Shown here: piece by piece, positions 33,495 through 46,502 of the stretch
Position numbering within the stretch: position 1 is the first letter of the stretch
How the letters are laid out: every line of letters begins with the position of its first letter
Origin: Gammaproteobacteria bacterium
GTDB taxonomy: Bacteria > Pseudomonadota > Gammaproteobacteria > Pseudomonadales > Cellvibrionaceae
Reading direction: 5' to 3'
DNA length: 64,000 nt
Assembly: GCA_004173475.1 (NCBI GenBank)
Contig: SEBU01000001.1
Location: 1,550,001-1,614,000, forward strand
Notes under the pieces: model-generated
Databases searched by the model: none
What the model was told of the DNA's origin: nothing
The model's input: only the letters and a program-made list of their open reading frames with translations
Translations under genes and position numbers: made by a program

Positions 33495-35132
33495 CTACTT
33501 GGGGATAAGCCCGTCGACCAGGGAAGCTAATGGCCGGAAGGCGGTCATTTTATCTTGAAGTGTGCTATTGCCCAAACCATGACCTTTAAAAGTTTCTCCA
33601 AACTTCGCTTTTTCAGCATCGCCATGTAACGCCATGTAATTGAGTATCACGGTTTCAACCAAAAGGTTTACGTTATTAGCTGCGGGGCTTGAAGCGGTTT
33701 CAACATCACCGGAAGGACGCATGTATCCAATTTGTTGATGGACGCGTTGAGCTGCAGTTAACGCGGTAGGGTCTGCGCTTTCACCGCCAATTAATATCGG
33801 CCTGCTACCCGGGTTGTACACAAGGAAAAATGAGGATGCGGTTTGCTGATCATCACCAGTCCAAACACCTTTACCACGCCCAGCTACTGAATTGTCCATC
33901 ATGCCGTTGCTGAATACTGATCCATCACTAAATACATAAATCATTAGGGGCTTACCTAAACGCGCGGCGTATTCGAGACATGCTCCTATACAATTACCAG
34001 CACGTTCATCGCGAGTTTCGCCGGTTGAGCGGTCACCAGTATGGTAATCAAACCCCCCCATGGTTATGGTGCCAGCACCGGCGTAACCATTTACGACCAG
34101 CTTCATTACGGAGGCAGTTTTACGGTATTCACCATTAGAATTAAATTCTTCCTGGCCAAAAATGCTATTAGTCTGCCCGACTATGTTTGCATCGGACTGT
34201 ACGACAAGTTCGGTTCCGCTACCGAAACGATCCGCGTAATCAGCACTCTGAACATAACCGCAGCGAATCATTTCTTCTAATTTTTCGTCTCGCCCTGACA
34301 CAAGAGTTCCAGGATTGACGTGATCCAGTTTTTTATCACTGATCTTGTACATGGCCTCCATTACCGCTACCACGTCCTGCGTATCTGGCATTAAGGACTT
34401 GAGATCGCCAACGTCCACCAAGCCCGCTACATCTTCTGGTCGATCAACCTTAGTAGGACGCTTTTCAAGATTGATCATTAAAGATGGCGACATAGAATTA
34501 CCACCCGAGTCGCTATTTACCGATCCAATCAATGACATTAACGAACCATCAGCACCAGCTTTATTAATTCCATACATGGGGTTGTGCGGATTGTTACCCG
34601 TGTCATTCTCTGACCTCGCGGCAATTACCGCCCCATTTGTCATCCCCTGAGTCATTGCCGCTGCGCGGGTTTTTATGCCGCGCAGAAGCGCGCTGTCGGC
34701 ATGGAAAGCCAAGCCCAAACTGGTGTCATAAAGCAGAGCATTTGCAGCTTGTGATGCGTTGGGAGCCATATCCGCTGGTAAGCCCTGTTTGCTGTAACCT
34801 CCGGTGCTGAGGAAATCGAGCTGACCACCTTTTTGTCCGATAAGAACGTTTGAACCGGCGATATTTGCCCCACCGGCCAAGTCGAAACAGATAAAAGGAA
34901 TTTTGCCTGAGCCCGCTGAACGAATTTTGCATTCAGCACGTTTGGCGATAATCTCGGGCGAGAGCGAGCCTAATGCGGACTGAGCAAACAAGCTCAACAT
35001 TGATCCGCCAATAACCGTTGCTGAGCCAGCTTTAAAACCTTGCGCAATAAGTTCGCGGCGCGTAACGGGACGACGATGGTTATTCAGCAGCAGCGGCGCA
35101 TCTGGGTGAAGTGGACCTTTATTTTTAGCCAT
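33495..35132 (-). CDS. DUF1501-like protein with Tat-type signal
   Basis: N-terminal RRPVTRRELIAQGFKAGSATVIGGSML; FICFDLAGGANIAGSNVLIG; MGGFDYHTGDRSTGETRDERAGNCIGACLEYAARLGKPLMIYVFSDGSVFSNG. Confidence 0.7.
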   Translation of the reverse strand: MAKNKGPLHPDAPLLLNNHRRPVTRRELIAQGFKAGSATVIGGSMLSLFAQSALGSLSPEIIAKRAECKIRSAGSGKIPFICFDLAGGANIAGSNVLIGQKGGQLDFLSTGGYSKQGLPADMAPNASQAANALLYDTSLGLAFHADSALLRGIKTRAAAMTQGMTNGAVIAARSENDTGNNPHNPMYGINKAGADGSLMSLIGSVNSDSGGNSMSPSLMINLEKRPTKVDRPEDVAGLVDVGDLKSLMPDTQDVVAVMEAMYKISDKKLDHVNPGTLVSGRDEKLEEMIRCGYVQSADYADRFGSGTELVVQSDANIVGQTNSIFGQEEFNSNGEYRKTASVMKLVVNGYAGAGTITMGGFDYHTGDRSTGETRDERAGNCIGACLEYAARLGKPLMIYVFSDGSVFSNGMMDNSVAGRGKGVWTGDDQQTASSFFLVYNPGSRPILIGGESADPTALTAAQRVHQQIGYMRPSGDVETASSPAANNVNLLVETVILNYMALHGDAEKAKFGETFKGHGLGNSTLQDKMTAFRPLASLVDGLIPK

Positions 35133-35172
35133 GATTTCTTACCTAAAATTGTCTAGTAAGGAAGCTGTTGCA

Positions 35173-37788
35173 TCATTGCAACAGCATCGCCGCGCTGCCG
35201 AAGGCCGCTGAACAAGTTGCTTTTACTGTGGTTAGCGTTCGATTGTTACAGGCATTACCACTACAGTTCGCCATATTGGTTATTAACGCATTCAATACGG
35301 TCTTCATTTCTGCTGCTGTGGGCTGTGAACTCACTGAACCATTCGCGAACAATCTATTCAATAACGGATTTATTATTTGGTCTCGATTCGCGCTGTCAGC
35401 CGGGAAAACCGCTGCCACTGGTGCAGTGAACGGGAAGCCGCTACCAAAATATTGGTCACGTGAAGTAGGATCGCTAACCAAGGCATTACAGTAAGAAACA
35501 GCTAACTGCGTAATCCCCATTTGCTGCGCTGCGAGGAAACCGTCCAGGTTCGCTAAGGTTGGAAGTTGTTGCTGAACTTTTTGATAAACCGTATAGACCG
35601 CAGGATTACTGGTAGGAACACCGGTTAGCACAGATAAGGTGGCGTTAATTTCTGCAAAGCGACGCAAACCGATTTGTGGCTGACCCACCACAGCGGCGGG
35701 TTCGACGGCTGCCGGCGCGCTCGGAACAGGGCGATTGTAAGCAGGCCTGCTGCCAATCTTATCGAACGTAATAAAGAACTGATCGGTATCCGGGCCGTTT
35801 TTAGCGGCTATAACAGTACCTAAATTGGAGAGATATTGACGACCTTTTGTTTCCCCAGCGGTATCCATCTTTCCGGAATTGAGCGACGCAGTCAGGTTTG
35901 CAAATACCTGCCCGACTGGTGCTTCCTCGCCGTTGACACCAATACGTACCCCTTGCAAAGGTATGTCGGAGTCGATCATTTTTCCGTCTAAATTAACGAA
36001 GAAGGGATTGGCGAAGAGATAGCCATAATCGTCAATCTGCTGAACTTCGAATACGATAAAACTGCCTGAGTATTTGGTTGCGTCCGTATCAAGCAATTCA
36101 GAAATGTTGAACAGCAGTAAATATTTTGCCCCCACGCCAACCTTATAGTTCGCGGCGATATCCGCAGCGCTCATGGCACGCTTATGAATACCGAGGAAGC
36201 GCATATTGCCGCTCCAGTTTGACGCAGTAGCGTTGCCGGTGACTTCATTTCCTACAACCAATGCAAAATTGCTATCCCAATCTTTAAGGCTTGCAGGCTT
36301 ATCTGGATCTTGATCTTTAGCATTTTGGGTGATGTCTTCTCCGTTGACATAAATTTTTCTACCATTTACCGGGTCGAACGTAACTACGGCATGCTGAAGG
36401 GTAGCCTGCACTCTTTGATCCGTGTCGTTAGTATGGAAAGCGTCTCCGTTTGTTAAAGACAGCCCGTTAGCATCGCTTTTAGTCGTGCGATTCAGGAAAT
36501 CGTAATTGTATTCATACTGTCCCAAAGTGAAGTTTCGCACCGTGTCGCTACCTGAGTAACTCACGATCCTTGACGGATTGTTGTCGTTTCCGCCCTGGGT
36601 CACATTGTCAGGGATGATCCAGGTTTCAATAGTGTACTCGCCGGACCCGTTGATTAAATCAAACAACTTGCGACTATTCGCAGTGCTCGCCTGCGCACGG
36701 CCGGCGTCGCGGATTTTAATTCCCCACGCACTGCTCCAGCCCACGTTGCCTATCAGATTCAAATCAGCCGCTGGCGAAATACCGCTCGTATCGTAAGCGA
36801 TAGTGCCTTTACCAGATTTGAATTCGTACTTGGCAATCAGGTTAGTGTCCACGCGGCCGCCACTGCTCAGTACGAACGCATCACTTAAACCAACCGCTTT
36901 ACTGACTATTAATGCAGGATCGATTTTTACCGCGTCTAATGTAAGGGCGTATTTTTCTATGGCTTCAAGCATTTCCTTCGAATTGGCGACACAATCGCTC
37001 CAGCAATTGTGAAAATCGGTTCCTAGGCGCACCACAAAACGTGAGTCCTTCTCCTTCGGGTTATCCAATCGAATTTTAGTCTTTGCTGCCTCATAAGCTA
37101 CTGCAATATCCCCGCTGGCAAAATAAGGTTGCTGCTTCGTAAGAGCGCTTTCAGAGTGACAGTTTGAGCAGTATTTAAGCAGAAAAGGTTTATGGATAAT
37201 CTCTTCAAAAGCTGTGCTATCTAATGGAAAAGTTTTAGCGTTGCCGATGTCTTTTACCGCCGGCGCTTTGAGGACAACTGTATTCGTTGTTGTTCCTGCC
37301 TCACCGGCCCATTTGGTAATCCATGTTGTGATGGTATCGCCGCAAGCAACCGGATCTTTTAGCCAGCAATGGTGGCCGCTGCTGACTTTACTGACGATGC
37401 GAGATTCACTTGGGCTAGCAAGTGAAACCAGGTTGTTGCTAATGACCGCTTCATAGGCGAGATTGATGTCATCACCGCGAGCAAACATGGGCGACTGCTT
37501 CGCCGATGAGTCACTATGGCAGCCGCCACAGCGATCAGCAGGGGCGATGTTCACCCATAGTTCCGTCTGGAATTTGATGACGTCGGGCGTAGCTGCTTGC
37601 TTCTCACCTTTGTAAGTGAAAGAACCGCCACTTCCGTTCCCATTATTTGTATTTGGATTTGTTTTGTTAGGAGTTTTACTGCCAGAGCCGCAGCTGGTAA
37701 GGACTAACGAAGTAATCGCTAGAATACTCAGCGAGCGAAGCAGATATTTAATATTTTTTGTAGAGGAGATGAGCATTAAATTATTCAT
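35173..37788 (-). CDS. LamG-domain lipoprotein with two cytochrome c-like CXXCH segments
   Basis: Lipobox LVLTSC; CGGCH (37516-37530) and CSNCH (37156-37170); LamG/ConA-like domain (GEYTIETWIIPDN...LQHAVVTFDPVNGRKIYVNG). Confidence 0.8.
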   Translation of the reverse strand: MNNLMLISSTKNIKYLLRSLSILAITSLVLTSCGSGSKTPNKTNPNTNNGNGSGGSFTYKGEKQAATPDVIKFQTELWVNIAPADRCGGCHSDSSAKQSPMFARGDDINLAYEAVISNNLVSLASPSESRIVSKVSSGHHCWLKDPVACGDTITTWITKWAGEAGTTTNTVVLKAPAVKDIGNAKTFPLDSTAFEEIIHKPFLLKYCSNCHSESALTKQQPYFASGDIAVAYEAAKTKIRLDNPKEKDSRFVVRLGTDFHNCWSDCVANSKEMLEAIEKYALTLDAVKIDPALIVSKAVGLSDAFVLSSGGRVDTNLIAKYEFKSGKGTIAYDTSGISPAADLNLIGNVGWSSAWGIKIRDAGRAQASTANSRKLFDLINGSGEYTIETWIIPDNVTQGGNDNNPSRIVSYSGSDTVRNFTLGQYEYNYDFLNRTTKSDANGLSLTNGDAFHTNDTDQRVQATLQHAVVTFDPVNGRKIYVNGEDITQNAKDQDPDKPASLKDWDSNFALVVGNEVTGNATASNWSGNMRFLGIHKRAMSAADIAANYKVGVGAKYLLLFNISELLDTDATKYSGSFIVFEVQQIDDYGYLFANPFFVNLDGKMIDSDIPLQGVRIGVNGEEAPVGQVFANLTASLNSGKMDTAGETKGRQYLSNLGTVIAAKNGPDTDQFFITFDKIGSRPAYNRPVPSAPAAVEPAAVVGQPQIGLRRFAEINATLSVLTGVPTSNPAVYTVYQKVQQQLPTLANLDGFLAAQQMGITQLAVSYCNALVSDPTSRDQYFGSGFPFTAPVAAVFPADSANRDQIINPLLNRLFANGSVSSQPTAAEMKTVLNALITNMANCSGNACNNRTLTTVKATCSAAFGSAAMLLQ

Positions 37789-37789
37789 C

Positions 37790-39049
37790 TTAATTCCCCT
37801 CACTGCAGTAGGTCGCAGTATCTACGAAGATCTGCTTGAGGTTGTAGCCGCTATTGGCAAAATTGTTTGTGAAGGTTTCAATTCTGGCGTGATCGGTAGA
37901 GTCCGCTGGTTTGCGTAGGCACACATGCTTAAATACTTTTTCAACCTGGCAAGCGGCGAAAGCATGACTGTGGGACAACTCCTCGCCCATACTTTTTGCA
38001 CCAGCCCCGCTCGCAGGCACACTTGGATCAGCTTTCCAATTCCAACCTAAATTACTATTAATTCCTTCACGCCAATAGTTTTGCCAATTGTCATTTGTAG
38101 TGACGTAGCCATAGGGAAATGTTGCGCTGTTCTGCAAATATTTTTTGTGAACGGTACCGGCCGTATATTGGATGCTGCCACTCAAAGCATCAGGATCGGT
38201 AGCCGCATCAAATTTGTAATCGTAGTAGGCAAACGCTTTTGCCATAGGGTCCATTCCGCTATGACAACCTATGCAACCATTAAGATAAACACGACTATCG
38301 CCACCGGGGCTGCGGCTAACATCCTGACGAATAAAATCTGGTGTACGGGTGATGTCATGAACTTGTTCAAGGTCGCGACACATGTGGTTCATCAATGTGA
38401 AACGAAACATCGCACGATTGGTTCCTGCGATAAAAAAGGCTTTGGCGGCAGCACGGCTAGTCATGACCCCGGCCGCAGCCTCTGCGGGTAATCCATTGAG
38501 AGACGATTGAGACTTTGGCTCAAGAACATCTTTTAAATTCAAACCCTTAGCTTCGATAGCTTCGTAATGCGCGTTGCTATTGCTAGCATAATTAGGTAAG
38601 CCGAGCCCGGTCTTACCAACATAAAGCTGATCGGTGGAAAGTATCGTGCGGAAATCTTTGTCGTCGTGAACTAAACCGACAACAGTAGCGGTGTAATCAT
38701 TTAATGGCGCAAACACAGTTTGGTCACGATTGGTCCAGGGAGTGGCCATATTCTTCAAAGTGACGTTGTAAAAGGCATCATTTTTCATAGCCTCTCTAAC
38801 AGCGTCATCGACAGTTTTGCCGTTGGCACCATCAATATAGCCAGCCATGAGAGTCAATACTTCTGGAGTCGGAGGCACGCCCGCAACACGGTTATGTATT
38901 ACTAACGCTCGTTCGAGCGATCCGGCGACAACCGTAGTTGAGCTGATGGCAGCGGCGGCTAATGCAATGCTTAAGCAGGAGCGGCTCAATAAATCGAGCT
39001 GGCGCCCAAGGCAACGGGCCAAAAATGAGGTAAAGGGTGAACTGATCAC
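37790..39049 (-). CDS. Exported CXXCH-containing protein, possibly DUF1585/1588-like
   Basis: Hydrophobic N-terminal segment; NGCIGCHSGMDPMAKAFAYYDY (CIGCH at 38261-38275). Confidence 0.6.
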   Translation of the reverse strand: MISSPFTSFLARCLGRQLDLLSRSCLSIALAAAAISSTTVVAGSLERALVIHNRVAGVPPTPEVLTLMAGYIDGANGKTVDDAVREAMKNDAFYNVTLKNMATPWTNRDQTVFAPLNDYTATVVGLVHDDKDFRTILSTDQLYVGKTGLGLPNYASNSNAHYEAIEAKGLNLKDVLEPKSQSSLNGLPAEAAAGVMTSRAAAKAFFIAGTNRAMFRFTLMNHMCRDLEQVHDITRTPDFIRQDVSRSPGGDSRVYLNGCIGCHSGMDPMAKAFAYYDYKFDAATDPDALSGSIQYTAGTVHKKYLQNSATFPYGYVTTNDNWQNYWREGINSNLGWNWKADPSVPASGAGAKSMGEELSHSHAFAACQVEKVFKHVCLRKPADSTDHARIETFTNNFANSGYNLKQIFVDTATYCSEGN

Positions 39050-39481
39050 GGTGGCTCCCGTAAAACTAGAACTTATGTGTTTAGTGGATGAAACAAGAGT
39101 CTAGCAGTGAAATACATCGCGGCACTGCGCAGTTATTATAGGTGCCAAAAGACGTGGGGCTTGTAACCGGTCGTCGCGCATTCCTGTCTACTTTGTCACA
39201 TAAATGGAAACTCCTTATAAGCCTCACAGGAAATGGCTATAAGAGTTTGAATTTTATGCATTTTAACGGCAGTGAGATATCCGATTACCGGAACCTGATT
39301 TTGCGCTAGCCCGCAAATGAATCGTGATTAAGTCGAGAGATTCAGCTGCCATCTTGGCTGACAATGCGAAAAATGCTTAAAAACCGCAGCGGGCGACACG
39401 GATAGTCTATCCTTCAAATGTTTTTGGCTGCACGATGCAGTTAATTCCTCACGTAAGCGTCTATCCCCAAGGTAATCTGCC

Positions 39482-42406
39482 ATGAAGCCTTCGCTCTTAA
39501 CCTGCTCACATAGATCTATATGGATGTTCGCCAGCATTTTAGCGCTGGTGTCTTGCGGTGGCGGAGGTGGCTCCGGTTCAAGCGGCGGCCAAAAGCCAGA
39601 CCCAGTTATTATCGATTTCCCGATTGCGTATATTGAACGCACCGTGCCAACGGTAAATCCTGAAGACCCCGACGAACCTATCTATCCCATAACCGATTTG
39701 TTAAGACCTACTGCATTCTTTCCTGGCGCGCGCGTCATTATTAAAGACCGCGCCAGTGCTTCTGCAAAAGCCGTAGATATCACTTCAGATGTATTTAAAG
39801 ACGACCCAAACTACGATCCGACCGACTTGGCAAAAGGCTACGATGTAAAAGATCTTTCCGTCAGTCGCGACGGAACCAAGTTGTTGTTTGCCATGCATGC
39901 TCCGCTCGATCCAGATCTTGAGGAAGATGATCCTCTGCAGACAAAGTGGCATATTTATGAGTACAACCTAAAAACTAAAGAAACACCACGCCCAATAATT
40001 ACTTCTGAAATTGTTGCTGAACAAGGCCACGACATCAGCCCCAGCTATTTACCTGACGGCCGCATTCTATTTACCTCCACTCGTCAAGTACGCAGCAAAG
40101 CCATTCTTCTTGACGACGGCAAGCCACAGTTTTCTGCCTATGAAGAAGGTAATGATACGGCTGCTTTCAATCTGCACGTCATGAAAGACGACGGCACCGG
40201 GATTGAACAGATTACCTACAACCAAAGCCATGACTTACAGCCAACTGTCCTTCAAAACGGGCGCATTCTCTACACTCATTGGGACCAAAACAATCTCGAC
40301 AATTTGAGTTTTTATACCACCAATCCCGATGGCACTCAGGTCGAGCGCCACTACGGATTCATAAGTATGAATATTCAACCGCTGGAAGCGGACCAGCCCA
40401 TGAACCGACTGTTAAAGCCACAGGAAATGTTGGACGGCCGAATTGCAGCCATTCTCAAACCTGATGGCGCGTTGTTGGGTGGCGATATGGTCGTGGTAGA
40501 CACCCAACATTTTTATGAGAACAACCTGCAAACTTCTGCTGGGGGTGGCACAAGCACTACCGCCCAAAATCCAATCTCAATTCTTCCGGTAAATATAAAA
40601 ACCAGCGAAACAGATGTGTCAAAACACGGTCGCTTTTCTGCTCTGTCGCCACTCTATGATGGCACCCAACGTTTATTGGCGAGTTGGTCGCAATGCCGCC
40701 TGAAAGAAGTCGCCACCAACAAGATCGTTGCTTGCACAGACAAACTAATCGTTGAGGAGCAAGTTGTTGAGGGTTATGAAGAGGCTGAACCTTTTTACGG
40801 GTTGTGGATTTACAACATTGCCGAACAATCCCAATTACCCGTCGTTCTGGCTGAAGAAGGTAAAATGTTTACTGAGCCAATTACGCTGGAGCCTCGTCCA
40901 GCCAGTACTTTTTATACTGCTAAAACCGACCCAGCGTTAGCAGCCGAAAATGTTGGCCTGCTCCATATTCGCAGCGTTTACGATATGGACGGTCAGTTCA
41001 ATGCGTTCGGCTCAATGGATTTCGCTAACATCGGACAAGTCGCCCAAGCGACACCAGATGCCCGCCCTGCACGTTTTATTCGTCTCATTAAAGCTGTATC
41101 AATTCCCGATGATGAAACTAAGGACAATCTAAGCGATGGAACCTACGGAGAAGAGTTCAACGATTTCACCGGGCTACGCGAAATTATCGGTTATGCCCCA
41201 GTAGAACCGGACGGCTCAGTTAAGGTTAAGGTACCTGCCGATGTGGCCTTTACATTGGAAGTTCTCGATAAAGATGGCAAACGCATTAGCACAAACCATA
41301 ACAATTGGCTGCAAGTTCGCCCTGGTGAAACCCGTGAATGCAACGGCTGCCATATGGCAAATAATCTTACCGCGGGACACGGTAGATCAGACTCGGAACC
41401 CGCAACAATCAATACGGGCGCTGCATCTGCTGGCTCAGCGGCACAATTCCCAGGCACTAAACGCTTCGATAAATTGGGCGCACCTATAGATATCGTTATG
41501 GGTGAAACCATGGCGGAATTGGCCTACCGCAGCTACTTCCAACTGCTTGTTGGTACAGATCTCGTCACCCTGCAGCGCAAACCGACGGTGGATTTGGCTT
41601 TCGATGATGAATGGACCGAATTGCTTGAAAATAAAGTGCCAAGCTTTGCTTATCGATATTCGGACCTCGCAACGACTGATGAAAATCATGCACCCACGTC
41701 GGAAGCATGTACGGAGATAGACGGGTGGACGAACCAATGTCGCGTTATCATTAATTACGAGCAGCACATCCAGCCATTGTGGAATCGCGAACGTCCGTTA
41801 TTCGCCAATGGCGCCCCAGTGTTGGACGCCGATAACAAACAAATCAATAACCGTTGTACTTCCTGCCATTCAAATTCTGTTACCGATGCCGACGGAAATT
41901 CCATGGCTCAAGTACCCGCCGGATTTTTGGAATTGGTTGGCACAAAACAGAATGCAGGGGATGAAATGCTCTCCTATACTCAACTGCTGACGGGTTCAAC
42001 AGAACAATATTTGGACGAAAATGGCGGTCTGCAGTCACTGATTCCCGTATGTTCATTAACAGTCAACACAAATGGCATACCTTTATGTACAGTGCCACCG
42101 CTGGACGAAAATGGTTTGCCCACCTGTACCGGCGTCGCTGTTTGCCAATATGAGCAAGACGCAGTCACCGGTGCATTATTATTAGATTCCGGCGGCAATT
42201 TGATTCCGTTAACGCGAGCCATTCCCGTGGCAGCAACCATGAGCCGCGCTGGTGCGCGAACAAGCGCAAGATTTTTCAACAAATTTACAACTACCACCGA
42301 TAGCCATTTTGGGCTATTGAATAACAGCGAATTGAAATTGCTATCTGAGTGGCTGGATTTGGGAGGGGCATATTACAACAACCCTTTCGACTCGATCGCA
42401 AAATAA
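39482..42406 (+). CDS. HzsA-related (hydrazine synthase alpha-like) lipoprotein with two CXXCH sites
   Basis: Lipobox LALVSC; propeller-type motifs (DISPSYLPDGRILFTSTRQ, HDLQPTVLQNGRILYTHWDQNN); CNGCH (41339-41353), CTSCH (41855-41869). Confidence 0.75.
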   Translation: MKPSLLTCSHRSIWMFASILALVSCGGGGGSGSSGGQKPDPVIIDFPIAYIERTVPTVNPEDPDEPIYPITDLLRPTAFFPGARVIIKDRASASAKAVDITSDVFKDDPNYDPTDLAKGYDVKDLSVSRDGTKLLFAMHAPLDPDLEEDDPLQTKWHIYEYNLKTKETPRPIITSEIVAEQGHDISPSYLPDGRILFTSTRQVRSKAILLDDGKPQFSAYEEGNDTAAFNLHVMKDDGTGIEQITYNQSHDLQPTVLQNGRILYTHWDQNNLDNLSFYTTNPDGTQVERHYGFISMNIQPLEADQPMNRLLKPQEMLDGRIAAILKPDGALLGGDMVVVDTQHFYENNLQTSAGGGTSTTAQNPISILPVNIKTSETDVSKHGRFSALSPLYDGTQRLLASWSQCRLKEVATNKIVACTDKLIVEEQVVEGYEEAEPFYGLWIYNIAEQSQLPVVLAEEGKMFTEPITLEPRPASTFYTAKTDPALAAENVGLLHIRSVYDMDGQFNAFGSMDFANIGQVAQATPDARPARFIRLIKAVSIPDDETKDNLSDGTYGEEFNDFTGLREIIGYAPVEPDGSVKVKVPADVAFTLEVLDKDGKRISTNHNNWLQVRPGETRECNGCHMANNLTAGHGRSDSEPATINTGAASAGSAAQFPGTKRFDKLGAPIDIVMGETMAELAYRSYFQLLVGTDLVTLQRKPTVDLAFDDEWTELLENKVPSFAYRYSDLATTDENHAPTSEACTEIDGWTNQCRVIINYEQHIQPLWNRERPLFANGAPVLDADNKQINNRCTSCHSNSVTDADGNSMAQVPAGFLELVGTKQNAGDEMLSYTQLLTGSTEQYLDENGGLQSLIPVCSLTVNTNGIPLCTVPPLDENGLPTCTGVAVCQYEQDAVTGALLLDSGGNLIPLTRAIPVAATMSRAGARTSARFFNKFTTTTDSHFGLLNNSELKLLSEWLDLGGAYYNNPFDSIAK

Positions 42407-42424
42407 CTGGGTGATAATTTACTC

Positions 42425-43231
42425 GTGCAAAAAAAAATAGAAAAAAATGTGCAGTATGGTGTTAAAAAATTTGCGCGATTAATTTGTTGCGCAGCCATGG
42501 CATGGAGCATCAATGCTTCGGCATTTGATTGGTCGAATTTAAATTTATTTAAAAAAGATGAACCGCTAGTTGTCACCGTTGATGATGCTTTTATCAATGT
42601 TCACAATGGTGCAGGGACGGGCTATCCCATATTTCATGTGGTGGAACGCGGCGAAACAATCACCCTGCTGAAAATGCACACTGAGTGGATAAAAATCCAA
42701 ACCGAACGCGGTGTCACCGGGTGGATCAATCGCAATGACATGGCATTAACGCTCAGCCCAGACGGCAGCAAACCTGATTTTCCTGACACCAAAAAAGCCG
42801 ACTACTTAGTGGATCGATTTGAGTTCAGTGCAGGTTATGGTGATTTCGATGGCGCAAAATCTTTTGATGTAAATTTGGGTTATCGATTTACCAAAAATTT
42901 ATCCACCGAGATTCGTTTCGCACAAAACACCGGCACCTACTCCGACAGCAGAATTCTAGCCATTGGTATCAATCATCAGCCCTTTCCTGACTGGTACGTT
43001 TCACCTTATATAGGTATAGCTGCTGGTGAAATTGCAACTACGCCGAGCACCACGTTGATAAAATCCGAAGATCGCACGGATGGTTTATTTCAGGCCAGCA
43101 TCGGAGCTTACGTTCACATTACCGGACGTTTTTTCCTCCGCGCCGAACTCACCAACGATTACATAACTACCAGCAATAATTCCAATGAAGAGGTTAAAGA
43201 ATGGAAAGTCGGATTCAGCGTATTTTTCTAA
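42425..43231 (+). CDS. SH3b-domain protein with C-terminal outer-membrane beta-barrel
   Basis: DDAFINVHNGAGTGYPIFHVVERGETITLLKMHTEWIKIQTERGVTGWINRND followed by barrel-like strands; GTG start. Confidence 0.8.
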   Translation: MQKKIEKNVQYGVKKFARLICCAAMAWSINASAFDWSNLNLFKKDEPLVVTVDDAFINVHNGAGTGYPIFHVVERGETITLLKMHTEWIKIQTERGVTGWINRNDMALTLSPDGSKPDFPDTKKADYLVDRFEFSAGYGDFDGAKSFDVNLGYRFTKNLSTEIRFAQNTGTYSDSRILAIGINHQPFPDWYVSPYIGIAAGEIATTPSTTLIKSEDRTDGLFQASIGAYVHITGRFFLRAELTNDYITTSNNSNEEVKEWKVGFSVFF

Positions 43232-43869
43232 TTGGTGTTCTGCTGATAACGGCTGCAGTTACCTCACTGTCGGCGTATGCCGAAGACGCAAATGCTGCCG
43301 ATGACGATGAATTGGGAAAAATTATTACCCCCGATTTAAAACGTCGCACAATTAAAGAGTCTGACCTGGACACCGAAAATTTTGAGTTAGGTTTATATTA
43401 CGGTTTACTCAGTATTGAAGATTTTGGAACCAATGAAGTTTCGGGTGTTAGTTTTGCGTACCATATTACCGAACGGTTTTTTACAGAAGCTGCTTTTGGT
43501 ATTAGCAAACTTCAAAAAACCAGTTGGGAATTACTAGGTGGGGGTGCGCAATTGCTCACTGATGAGCAGCGCGATCTGAGCTATTACAATTTAGCGCTTG
43601 GCTACAACGTTTTACCGGGCCAAGTATACGTCACCAAAAAATTTCATTTTGATACCAATATTTATTTTTTAGCGGGCGCCGGTAATACCCACTTCGCCGA
43701 CAAAAATTATTTCACTTACAACTTTGGTGCGGGCCTCAAGTTCTACTCTACGGATTGGCTCTCAGTTGATTTAAGTTTGCGTGAATATGCGTTTACTCAC
43801 GATTTGTTCGGAAAAGACAAAGATACAAATAATCTTGAAGGCCGCTTAGGCATTGCCATTTTCTTTTAA
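43201..43869 (+). CDS. Outer-membrane beta-barrel protein
   Basis: Signal peptide, alternating strands, C-terminal ...GRLGIAIFF; overlaps previous ORF by 31 nt. Confidence 0.78.
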   Translation: MESRIQRIFLIGVLLITAAVTSLSAYAEDANAADDDELGKIITPDLKRRTIKESDLDTENFELGLYYGLLSIEDFGTNEVSGVSFAYHITERFFTEAAFGISKLQKTSWELLGGGAQLLTDEQRDLSYYNLALGYNVLPGQVYVTKKFHFDTNIYFLAGAGNTHFADKNYFTYNFGAGLKFYSTDWLSVDLSLREYAFTHDLFGKDKDTNNLEGRLGIAIFF

Positions 43870-43901
43870 CATTATTTTCAATTTACTTGTTTGAGGCATA
43901 T

Positions 43902-44399
43902 ATGTTGTTGAAATCATTTATTCAAAAAGCGGTGTGCAGTCTTGTTGGTATATTTGCAATAAATGCTGTGGTCTTCGCAGCCGAATCCGCACCGGATTTT
44001 ACGCTTAAAAGCTCAACGGGTGAGAATATTCGTCTAGCTGAACAGCGTGGCCAAGTTGTGATGTTAAATTTTTGGGCCTCCTGGTGCGGCCCTTGCCGCC
44101 AAGAAATGCCTTTGCTTGATGGCATCAGTAAAAAATACGGCAAAATGGGATTTGTGCTTTTAGGTATTAACGTTGATCAGGACAATTCCGATGCGCAAAA
44201 AGTCCTACAAAAAATTAAAGTTAGCTATCCAATTTTATTCGACCCGGAATCAAAACTCAGCAGCTTATATAAAGTGGATGCTATGCCGTCCAGCGTGTTT
44301 ATCGACAAGAAAGGCAACGTTCGTTTCATAGACCGTGGTTATTCCCCAGGTGATGAAGAAAAATATGTTAAGCAAATTCAGGAGCTCATTCGCGAATGA
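43902..44399 (+). CDS. TlpA/ResA-like thioredoxin
   Basis: APDFTLKSSTGENIRLAEQRGQVVMLNFWASWCGPCRQEMPLLDG. Confidence 0.92.
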   Translation: MLLKSFIQKAVCSLVGIFAINAVVFAAESAPDFTLKSSTGENIRLAEQRGQVVMLNFWASWCGPCRQEMPLLDGISKKYGKMGFVLLGINVDQDNSDAQKVLQKIKVSYPILFDPESKLSSLYKVDAMPSSVFIDKKGNVRFIDRGYSPGDEEKYVKQIQELIRE

Positions 44400-44626
44400 T
44401 TTTTAAAAAAATCGCGCTGGGTACAGTCATGGTAAGTGTACTCATTACCTCAGGCTGTGGCATTAAACCCTGGGTTAAACCCTACGAGCGTCAGAATATT
44501 GCGGATCCGATTATGAGCTTCAGCCGCGATCCTATTTCTGACTCATACCTCTCTCACGTTCACGATGCACGTGAGGGAGCAAAAGGTGCGGATGGCGGTG
44601 CAGGAGGCGGTTGTGGCTGCAATTAA
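44396..44626 (+). CDS. DUF4266 lipoprotein
   Basis: SGCGIKPWVKPYERQNIADPIMSFSRDPISDSYLSHVHDAREGAKGADGGAGGGCGCN; ATGA overlap with tlpA. Confidence 0.9.
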   Translation: MIFKKIALGTVMVSVLITSGCGIKPWVKPYERQNIADPIMSFSRDPISDSYLSHVHDAREGAKGADGGAGGGCGCN

Positions 44627-45848
44627 TAATAAAAAAATATTGCCGGTAATCCTCCATTTCGCTGTAGCTATTTTTTCAGTCTGGATATTTCCAGCTACCT
44701 CTGCCGTTTTACCTGATGAGCGTGTAGACGTACTTGAACATCAATACGAAGGTGGCGGCATAAAAGTTTCTGGTCCGTCTATTCTCGTTCGTAAAGATAT
44801 AGGACGTTCGGTTTCTGTATCAGCAAATTATTACGTTGACCTTGTAAGCAGCGCGTCTATTGATGTGCATTCGTCGGGCAGCCGCTACAGCGAAGAGCGA
44901 ACTCAAAAATCGGTAGGCATTGATTACATGCATGACCGCACATCATTTACTTTGGGCTACACCACCAGCGACGAAAATGACTACCAGGCAAAAACCTATA
45001 ATCTGGGTGTAAGCCAAACTTTTTTTGGCGATTTAACCACACTCAATTTCAGTTTCGGTTTTGGTGAAGACCAGATTCTTAAAAATAGAAAAGTGACGGG
45101 AAGTCTTGAAGGCGAAACCGATCCCGATTTTCGTCCGCTCGATAAAGAGCGACGCACCTATAGCCTTAATATTTCACAAATTTTAACTAGAAATTTAATT
45201 ACCGAGATAAGCGTCGAATCCGGCACCGAAGCCTGCATTAATATGCTGGAAGGTGAAAGCTGCCTGAACAATCCTTATCGTAATTACAGCTACCTTGACG
45301 CCAGCGGCCAACGCGCGTCCAAACCGGAAATATATCCTCTAACCCACAACAGTGACGCGGCCAGTATACGTGCTATGTACCATTTGCCTTTCTCTGCATC
45401 CATTCGAGCGGATGTACGACATTACACAGATAACTGGGGCGTAAGTGCCAACAATGCCGAAATAAGATATATCCACGACTTCAAAAAAGATTTTTTGCTT
45501 GAAGTTAAATATCGTGTTTACAGCCAAACCGAAGCGGATTTTTACAGTGACTTATTCCCTTTTGAAAGGTCACAAGATTTCTTAGCGCGCGATAAAGAGT
45601 TAAGCCCTTTTACCTCTAAAACGATCGGTGTGGGTTTAACCTACAAACTTCCATGGTCAATTCCGTACTTCGAAAAAAGTACCGTGAATTTTTTCTGGGA
45701 TCACATCAATATCGATTACGAAGATTTTCGCGATTACAACAATTTCGCCAACGCCAAACTCCCGGAAGGCGGTTACAAAGCCGGCGAAGAACCGCTCTAT
45801 AGTTTAAAAGCTGACGTTATACGTTTCTATTTATCTTTCTGGTTTTAA
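44613..45848 (+). CDS. DUF3570 protein (outer-membrane beta-barrel)
   Basis: DERVDVLEHQYEGGGIKVSGPSILVRKDIGRSVSVSANYYVDLVSSAS; AGGAGG at 44602-44607 with 5-nt spacing to GTG 44613. Confidence 0.85.
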   Translation: MAAINNKKILPVILHFAVAIFSVWIFPATSAVLPDERVDVLEHQYEGGGIKVSGPSILVRKDIGRSVSVSANYYVDLVSSASIDVHSSGSRYSEERTQKSVGIDYMHDRTSFTLGYTTSDENDYQAKTYNLGVSQTFFGDLTTLNFSFGFGEDQILKNRKVTGSLEGETDPDFRPLDKERRTYSLNISQILTRNLITEISVESGTEACINMLEGESCLNNPYRNYSYLDASGQRASKPEIYPLTHNSDAASIRAMYHLPFSASIRADVRHYTDNWGVSANNAEIRYIHDFKKDFLLEVKYRVYSQTEADFYSDLFPFERSQDFLARDKELSPFTSKTIGVGLTYKLPWSIPYFEKSTVNFFWDHINIDYEDFRDYNNFANAKLPEGGYKAGEEPLYSLKADVIRFYLSFWF

Positions 45849-45956
45849 TTCTATTGGGCTTCGATGAATTCATTGAAGCCTGATATCATCCCAATCACGC
45901 CAGATTACGTATCAAATCCACCTTTATTAACAATCACTTTACCAGCGAGATTGCTC

Positions 45957-46502
45957 ATGAAAATTTTATATCGCCTCATTGGCTGTTTAGGTATGGGATT
46001 CATTACATCAACAACTTACGCCGCGTGCGCACCGCATTTGGAAGGCGATTACCGTAAATTGCATTCAAGCGAATCTATTAACCTTTGTAAGCTTGTAGAA
46101 AATAAGGTAACTCTTGTTCTTAACACCGCAAGCCACTGCGGTTTTGCGCCGCAGTTTAAGGGATTGGAGGCGCTCAACAAAAAGTATAAGGATAAAGGCC
46201 TCGTTGTTGTCGGTTTTGCCAGCGATGATTTTAATCAGGAAGATAAAGACGAGGGGAATGCCGCTGGTATTTGCTTTGTAAATTTTGGCGTGACCTTTAC
46301 CATGTTCGCACCTACGCATGTGCGCGGTGATGAAGTAAATAACTTATTCAAATATTTAGGTTCAGAGTCTGAAGCGCCGCAATGGAATTTCAATAAATAT
46401 TTGTTAGACAAGAATGGCAAGGTTATACAGCACTTTGGCAGCATGACCGGGCCAGATTCAAAAGACTTGAAAAAAGCCATCGAAAAAGCACTTGCCATTT
46501 AG
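45957..46502 (+). CDS. Glutathione peroxidase family protein
   Basis: LVLNTASHCGFAPQFKGLEALNKKYKDKGLVVVGF; signal-like N-terminus from ATG 45957. Confidence 0.88.
   Translation: MKILYRLIGCLGMGFITSTTYAACAPHLEGDYRKLHSSESINLCKLVENKVTLVLNTASHCGFAPQFKGLEALNKKYKDKGLVVVGFASDDFNQEDKDEGNAAGICFVNFGVTFTMFAPTHVRGDEVNNLFKYLGSESEAPQWNFNKYLLDKNGKVIQHFGSMTGPDSKDLKKAIEKALAI

Follow-up and report, generated by a model that had tools for sequence, protein, structure and literature searches.

An HzsA-related dihaem lipoprotein in a conserved gammaproteobacterial locus linked to Agl-Glt-like envelope genes

In the hydrazine synthase alpha subunit (HzsA), the proximal ligand of haem alphaI is a tyrosine (PMC12607021). 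According to the accessible part of Hagglund et al. 2025 (PMC12758564), clades I-IV of the HzsA homologues have co-located betagamma genes and possess neither Tyr591 nor Cys303; clade I homologues lack His772, the opposite of the group described here, and this gammaproteobacterial HzsA group is not treated in that part of the paper. The Glt machine of Myxococcus includes the VWA outer-membrane lipoproteins CglB and CglD and, together with GltC, the two barrels GltB and GltA. A gammaproteobacterial Agl-Glt core complex was described as a gene unit and left without an assigned function (Luciano et al. 2011, PMC3169522; PMC3858216). Furthermore, ApbE flavinylates DUF3570 proteins at [ST]GA[ST] sites, in clusters with genes for thioredoxin-like and DUF4266 proteins (Meheust et al. 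2021, PMC8238504). Among open-licence papers, we found none on an HzsA-related protein or PF18582 in Gammaproteobacteria and none that connects HzsA relatives with DUF3570 cassettes and the Agl-Glt core, an absence that is not proof.

The window, a stretch of 64,000 nucleotides from a Cellvibrionaceae genome (GCA_004173475.1, contig SEBU01000001.1, positions 1,550,001 to 1,614,000), encodes an HzsA-like dihaem outer-membrane lipoprotein of 974 amino acids with an ATG start (39482-42406, forward strand) and three domains: a TolB-like propeller, an HZS_alpha middle domain and a cytochrome c domain. Its lipobox cysteine, Cys25 (39554-39556, +), is present in 110 of 111 orthologues and is followed by Gly, which fits outer-membrane sorting. 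The HZS_alpha domain (residues 534-624; 41081-41353, +) matches PF18582 with 63.5 bits against the Pfam cut-off of 26.6, and the PD40 propeller repeat scores 30.5 bits, above the Pfam curated score. The best phmmer match in the PDB was HzsA 5c2v (E 8.6e-7), also ranked first with a profile from 29 orthologues (E 1.1e-18). Foldseek analysis of the AlphaFold model (pLDDT 83, pTM 0.82) gave 5c2v_A as the best match (E 7e-25, 1033 columns, TM-scores 0.46/0.57), covering all three domains, with TolB propellers next (E 5e-10). A sequence-only reading had called this gene, by motif alone, an HzsA-related lipoprotein with propeller-like repeats and two CXXCH motifs, and our analysis, including the comparison of the AlphaFold model with hydrazine synthase alpha in which the propeller and cytochrome architecture was present, bears out each of these points. 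The two motifs are CNGCH at residues 620-624 and CTSCH at 792-796. Since a collection scan revealed at least 577 relatives, the protein is not a chance observation.

The gene belongs to a locus of nine genes arranged in two divergent operons (33495-45848), which also encodes two more cytochromes of the c type, three barrels of the outer membrane, TlpA, a DUF4266 lipoprotein and DUF3570. On the forward strand, it is followed by genes for a 268-aa protein with an SH3 domain and an outer-membrane beta-barrel (42425-43231; Pfam SH3_3 and OMP_b-brl, conserved synteny), a 222-aa outer-membrane beta-barrel protein (43201-43869, overlapping the preceding gene by 31 nt; NCBIfam TIGR04565 OMP_myx_plus, 140 bits against 60), a TlpA/ResA-like thioredoxin-fold protein with WCGPC (43887-44399), a small DUF4266 lipoprotein of 76 aa with the C-terminal end GGGCGCN (44396-44626; Pfam, 79.4 bits against 27) and a DUF3570 beta-barrel protein (44565-45848; Pfam, 111 bits against 25), whose start codon is uncertain and whose reading frame overlaps DUF4266. 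The DUF4266 gene overlaps its neighbours and is easily overlooked. The divergent operon on the reverse strand encodes a PSD2/PSCyt3-like exported monohaem cytochrome of 419 aa with CIGCH (37790-39049), a dihaem lipoprotein of 876 aa with Laminin_G_3, CGGCH and CSNCH (LamG lipoprotein; 35173-37803) and a 545-aa protein that starts with a leader of the twin-arginine type and matches nothing in Pfam (33495-35132). The intergenic region 39050-39481 is common to both operons; no common regulator site was found in 98 such divergent regions. The 419-aa protein scores 23.2 bits for PSD2, just below the Pfam cut-off of 25.8; among 11 relatives, PSD2 was matched at E<=1 by 10, down to 1.2e-5. In the LamG lipoprotein an invariant His follows each CXXCH, and these residues could be the distal haem ligands.

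The nine-gene synteny was found in nearly every orthologue-bearing relative examined, from genus to order. Other Gammaproteobacteria yielded 55 loci longer than 20 kb that contain this block, with seven genes in 55/55, DUF4266 in 54 and TlpA detected in 43. The 545-aa protein is the most conserved product of the locus (mean column identity 72%) and in a 299-genome sample it occurred only in genomes with the locus. Its structural model is weak (pLDDT 57.5), and Foldseek returned nothing at E<=0.001, at most hinting at the alkaline-phosphatase superfamily. Its assignment to DUF1501 was not supported (no Pfam match; hhalign probability 7%). We rejected the glutathione-peroxidase-like Gpx gene (45864-46502) as a member of the system, as it is present only in close relatives. 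Three loci forming one clade on the tree (L066, L067 and L170) have no divergent trio, and their HzsA carries a third CXXCH domain, located C-terminally.

Elsewhere in the window genome, contig C5 carries an Agl-Glt-like cluster of genes for an ApbE, a 199-aa protein, a 670-aa TPR protein, TPR lipoproteins of 956 aa and 235 aa, a MotA/ExbB protein, two ExbD proteins and a 337-aa AgmX/PglI-domain protein. The last of these is weakly similar to GltG (AgmX/PglI domain, 70 bits against 40), and all seven GltC-D-E-, AglR-Q-S- and GltG-like genes are present, in the same order as in relatives where the cluster adjoins the HzsA locus. We assigned the Agl/Glt genes by domain and gene order, not by a tree with Myxococcus. 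In 28 of 55 long loci the nine-gene block has the 199-aa and GltC/GltD-like genes as direct neighbours, often with ApbE; this adjacency takes two arrangements and changes 6 times on the HzsA tree. In two genomes (G298 and G041) a single directon runs ApbE-HzsA-OMPs-TlpA-DUF4266-DUF3570-199-GltC-D-E-AglR-Q-S-GltG. Moreover, the HzsA gene and the 199-aa gene (E<=1e-30) occur in the same genomes, 34/34 against 0/23 in 57 genomes, a comparison that takes no account of phylogeny. These 34 genomes span 15 of 37 genera, and one of them (G024) holds only the paralogue; the two-contig genome of a congener (G015) lacks both genes.

In five other loci (L068-L071 and L180) a GltC-D-E-R-Q-S-G cluster likewise closes with an HzsA-type propeller gene. 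The protein of L180 keeps HZS_alpha and two CXXCH motifs. In L068-L071 the proteins have no CXXCH, and their alignment with the window protein is confined to residues ~5-480, the propeller; their haem half is replaced by PKD, PA14 or VWA modules (L068-L070) or by a PA14-bearing tail (L071). This shows that the HzsA propeller is a modular subunit with either a haem or an adhesin-type C terminus. In addition, further HZS_alpha paralogues, 774-1819 aa long and including four from the single genome G156, have neither DUF3570 nor Glt neighbours (L174-L179).

On balance, and with modest confidence, we propose that the HzsA-like protein is probably the outer-membrane propeller lipoprotein of a cytochrome-carrying gammaproteobacterial envelope machine of the Agl-Glt type. 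The support for this proposal comes entirely from linkage and sequence, that is, from the family, predicted fold, haem-ligand pattern, locus composition, conserved linkage and co-occurrence, and from it we infer that the locus products would form one complex, that the motor would act on this complex and that electrons would flow through it. The AglRQS-like channel (ExbB and two ExbD) would draw on the proton motive force, which would be passed via the GltG-like TonB-type arm and the GltC/D/E-like TPR proteins onto an outer-membrane assembly of the SH3-barrel, barrel and DUF3570 proteins with the HzsA-like and LamG dihaem lipoproteins. Redox activity of this assembly would come from three proteins that together bear five c-haem motifs, from TlpA and from DUF4266, a CxC protein; many relatives also have ApbE, which would attach flavin to DUF3570. 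Within the HzsA-like protein, docking may fall to the propeller, which it shares with the paralogues, and the actual work to an exchangeable C-terminal half, with haems here and adhesion modules in the paralogues. The action would be proton-driven through the AglS-like Asp, and electrons would travel via the haems and possibly flavin. Our guess from the LamG domain is that a glycan or surface polymer might be the partner. Independent support for the machine is provided by the HzsA-type propeller genes that close Glt-like clusters in L068-L071 and L180, haem-less in L068-L071. Against it count the position of the HzsA locus and the Glt-like cluster on different contigs in the window genome, the scores for the NCBIfam Myxococcus equivalogs, which lie far under the cut-offs (GltG 45.6 against 650; GltE 44.3 against 225), and the AglQ-like helix, which has Asn or Ser and not Asp; the AglS-like Asp is kept in 14/14.

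A possible but rather unlikely alternative is that the locus encodes an electron-transfer system of the outer membrane with a redox role only, similar to other DUF3570/ApbE/TlpA systems. The HzsA-like and LamG cytochromes would then wire electrons across the outer membrane, and the Agl-Glt-like cluster would serve another role, e.g. cell-surface maintenance. The window locus has five CXXCH motifs on three proteins (HzsA-like, LamG and PSD2-like), DUF3570 flavinylation is established (Meheust et al., PMC8238504) and TlpA-DUF4266-DUF3570-ApbE is a standing cassette elsewhere, all of which speaks for such a system: in 15 sampled free DUF3570 loci ApbE was close by in 14 and the canonical flavin motif was present in all. 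The motif of HzsA-linked DUF3570 proteins is mostly SSAS or similar, with at least one [ST]GA[ST] in 26 of 77, and the window DUF3570 has no [ST]GA[ST], carrying SSAS and SGSR instead. ApbE was located within 10 kb in 17 of 55 long loci (21 of 59 with further loci), with nine changes on the tree, and its adjacency was not significantly linked to a canonical DUF3570 flavin motif (Fisher p 0.096; no support from independent pairs). Both the degenerate window motif and this missing link also weigh against our machine proposal. Next to the window locus there is no ApbE, and the one heading the C5 Glt-like cluster is, among the ApbEs of the window genome, the closest to locus-linked ApbEs. The purely redox system does not explain why HzsA and the 199-aa gene from the Glt-like cluster co-occur perfectly, why they adjoin repeatedly in differing arrangements, or why haem-less HzsA paralogues lie in other Glt-like clusters.

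The C5 ApbE gene (G000, L246:6766-7875) directly adjoins the type II secretion genes GspK and GspL and probably also M and N. In other bacteria this secretion route carries cytochromes to the cell surface, and a link between these secretion genes and the C5 ApbE/Glt-like cluster is conceivable.

We placed the haem and zinc ligands of 111 orthologues by profile alignment with 5c2v, the chain numbering of which runs 27 below the literature (H560 = His587, C276 = Cys303, H745 = His772). The first haem motif, CNGCH (41339-41353, +), is equivalent to haem alphaI and is kept in 108 of 111 orthologues, and a Tyr within 10 residues after it, equivalent to Tyr591, was found in 0 of these 108. The three remaining proteins (L051, L052 and L057) lost the motif in three tree changes with their reading frames open. 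At residue 294, the position of the zinc ligand Cys303, a Cys occurs in 0/111; the window protein has Ile, and His and Asn are found in 62 and 27 of the 111. The second motif, CTSCH (41855-41869, +), equivalent to haem alphaII, is present in 110/111, and His942 (42305-42307, +), the equivalent of the distal ligand alphaHis772, is invariant (111/111), so that the HzsA-like protein has the bis-His pattern of haem alphaII. Losses of alphaI and absence of the Tyr and Cys, set against the almost invariant alphaII, indicate therefore that the part serving anammox chemistry is dispensable and the bis-His haem is not. This also bears on a mainly structural or adhesive surface propeller with minor or decaying haems, as in the haem-less paralogues: such a role would agree with the three independent losses of the first motif in open reading frames and with the PKD, PA14 and VWA modules of those paralogues, and it is made improbable by the virtually invariant second CXXCH and its distal His and by the LamG and PSD2-like partners, which retain every CXXCH in 29/29.

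A His-Gly-Arg at residue 633 (41378-41380), about 9 residues after the first CXXCH, was observed in 98 of the 108 proteins with that CXXCH and is missing in all three without it; it might provide a ligand to the first haem.

The HzsA-like lipoprotein is not a hydrazine synthase. The sequence-only reading had expected a different function from a neighbourhood without HzsB and HzsC, and the absence extends to the whole genome, where neither beta nor gamma matched at E<=0.001; for gamma the evidence is weaker, as the model matched no control genome either. Our check of the haem-proximal and zinc ligands revealed that neither is retained, and the NCBIfam equivalog hydrazine_alpha scores 46.6 bits against 800. 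With these residues and the absent beta/gamma subunits, we ruled out an anammox-like function, and even a remote nitrogen-chemistry enzyme, suggested by the family and fold shared with hydrazine synthase alpha, is very improbable given the missing Tyr591 and Cys303, the threefold loss of the alphaI motif and the beta/gamma subunits not found in the genome. Thus the earlier reading was right on an HzsA-related protein with another function, but it missed the informative neighbours, the nine-gene locus and its Agl-Glt link.

The envelope machine that we propose joins two puzzles, the gammaproteobacterial Agl-Glt core (Luciano et al. 2011) and the non-anammox HzsA relatives, both without an assigned role. 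It offers a testable role for both a cytochrome family and an envelope machine related to the Myxococcus gliding motor, and together with the DUF3570/ApbE cassette amounts to about 18 genes, a set open to joint testing in culturable groups such as Marinobacter, Microbulbifer, Cellvibrionaceae and Alteromonadaceae. The modular use of the HzsA propeller also bears on the origin of hydrazine synthase. As a tentative generalization, which we hold to be possible rather than probable, gammaproteobacterial Agl-Glt cores might be proton-powered machines with exchangeable HzsA-type propellers, one branch of which, with haems and flavin, would be a motor-driven surface redox apparatus of a kind not described before.

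Compared with HzsA of anammox bacteria (5c2v), the window protein has the same propeller, HZS_alpha middle domain with a c-haem, C-terminal bis-His c-haem and full-length fold, but is a lipoprotein without the proximal Tyr, the zinc Cys and HzsB/HzsC. With the clade I-IV homologues, as covered in the accessible part of PMC12758564, the window group shares the absence of Tyr591 and Cys303; homologues from these clades that have the alphaII haem are without His772, a residue invariant in the window group, and the neighbourhood differs. Planctomycete PSCyt/PSD cytochromes with Laminin_G_3 (PMC5615132) resemble the pairing of a PSD2-like with a LamG cytochrome, whereas in the window these are separate proteins of a single locus with a PSD2 score just under the cut-off. 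As in the Agl-Glt/Nfs core complex (PMC3169522; PMC3858216), AglR-Q-S- and GltC-D-E-G-like genes are clustered in Gammaproteobacteria, but here they are linked with DUF3570/ApbE and with three kinds of cytochrome (HzsA-like, LamG and PSD2-like), with no motility part known. The pair of SH3-barrel and barrel proteins recalls GltB-GltA (PMC4488436) in adjacency, size and order only, and the 670-aa TPR protein resembles GltC in size and order only. Finally, the window locus has the TlpA-DUF4266-DUF3570 order of the Meheust cassette (PMC8238504) and its genome differs from it by a detached ApbE, mostly degenerate [ST]GA[ST] motifs and the added cytochromes and barrels.
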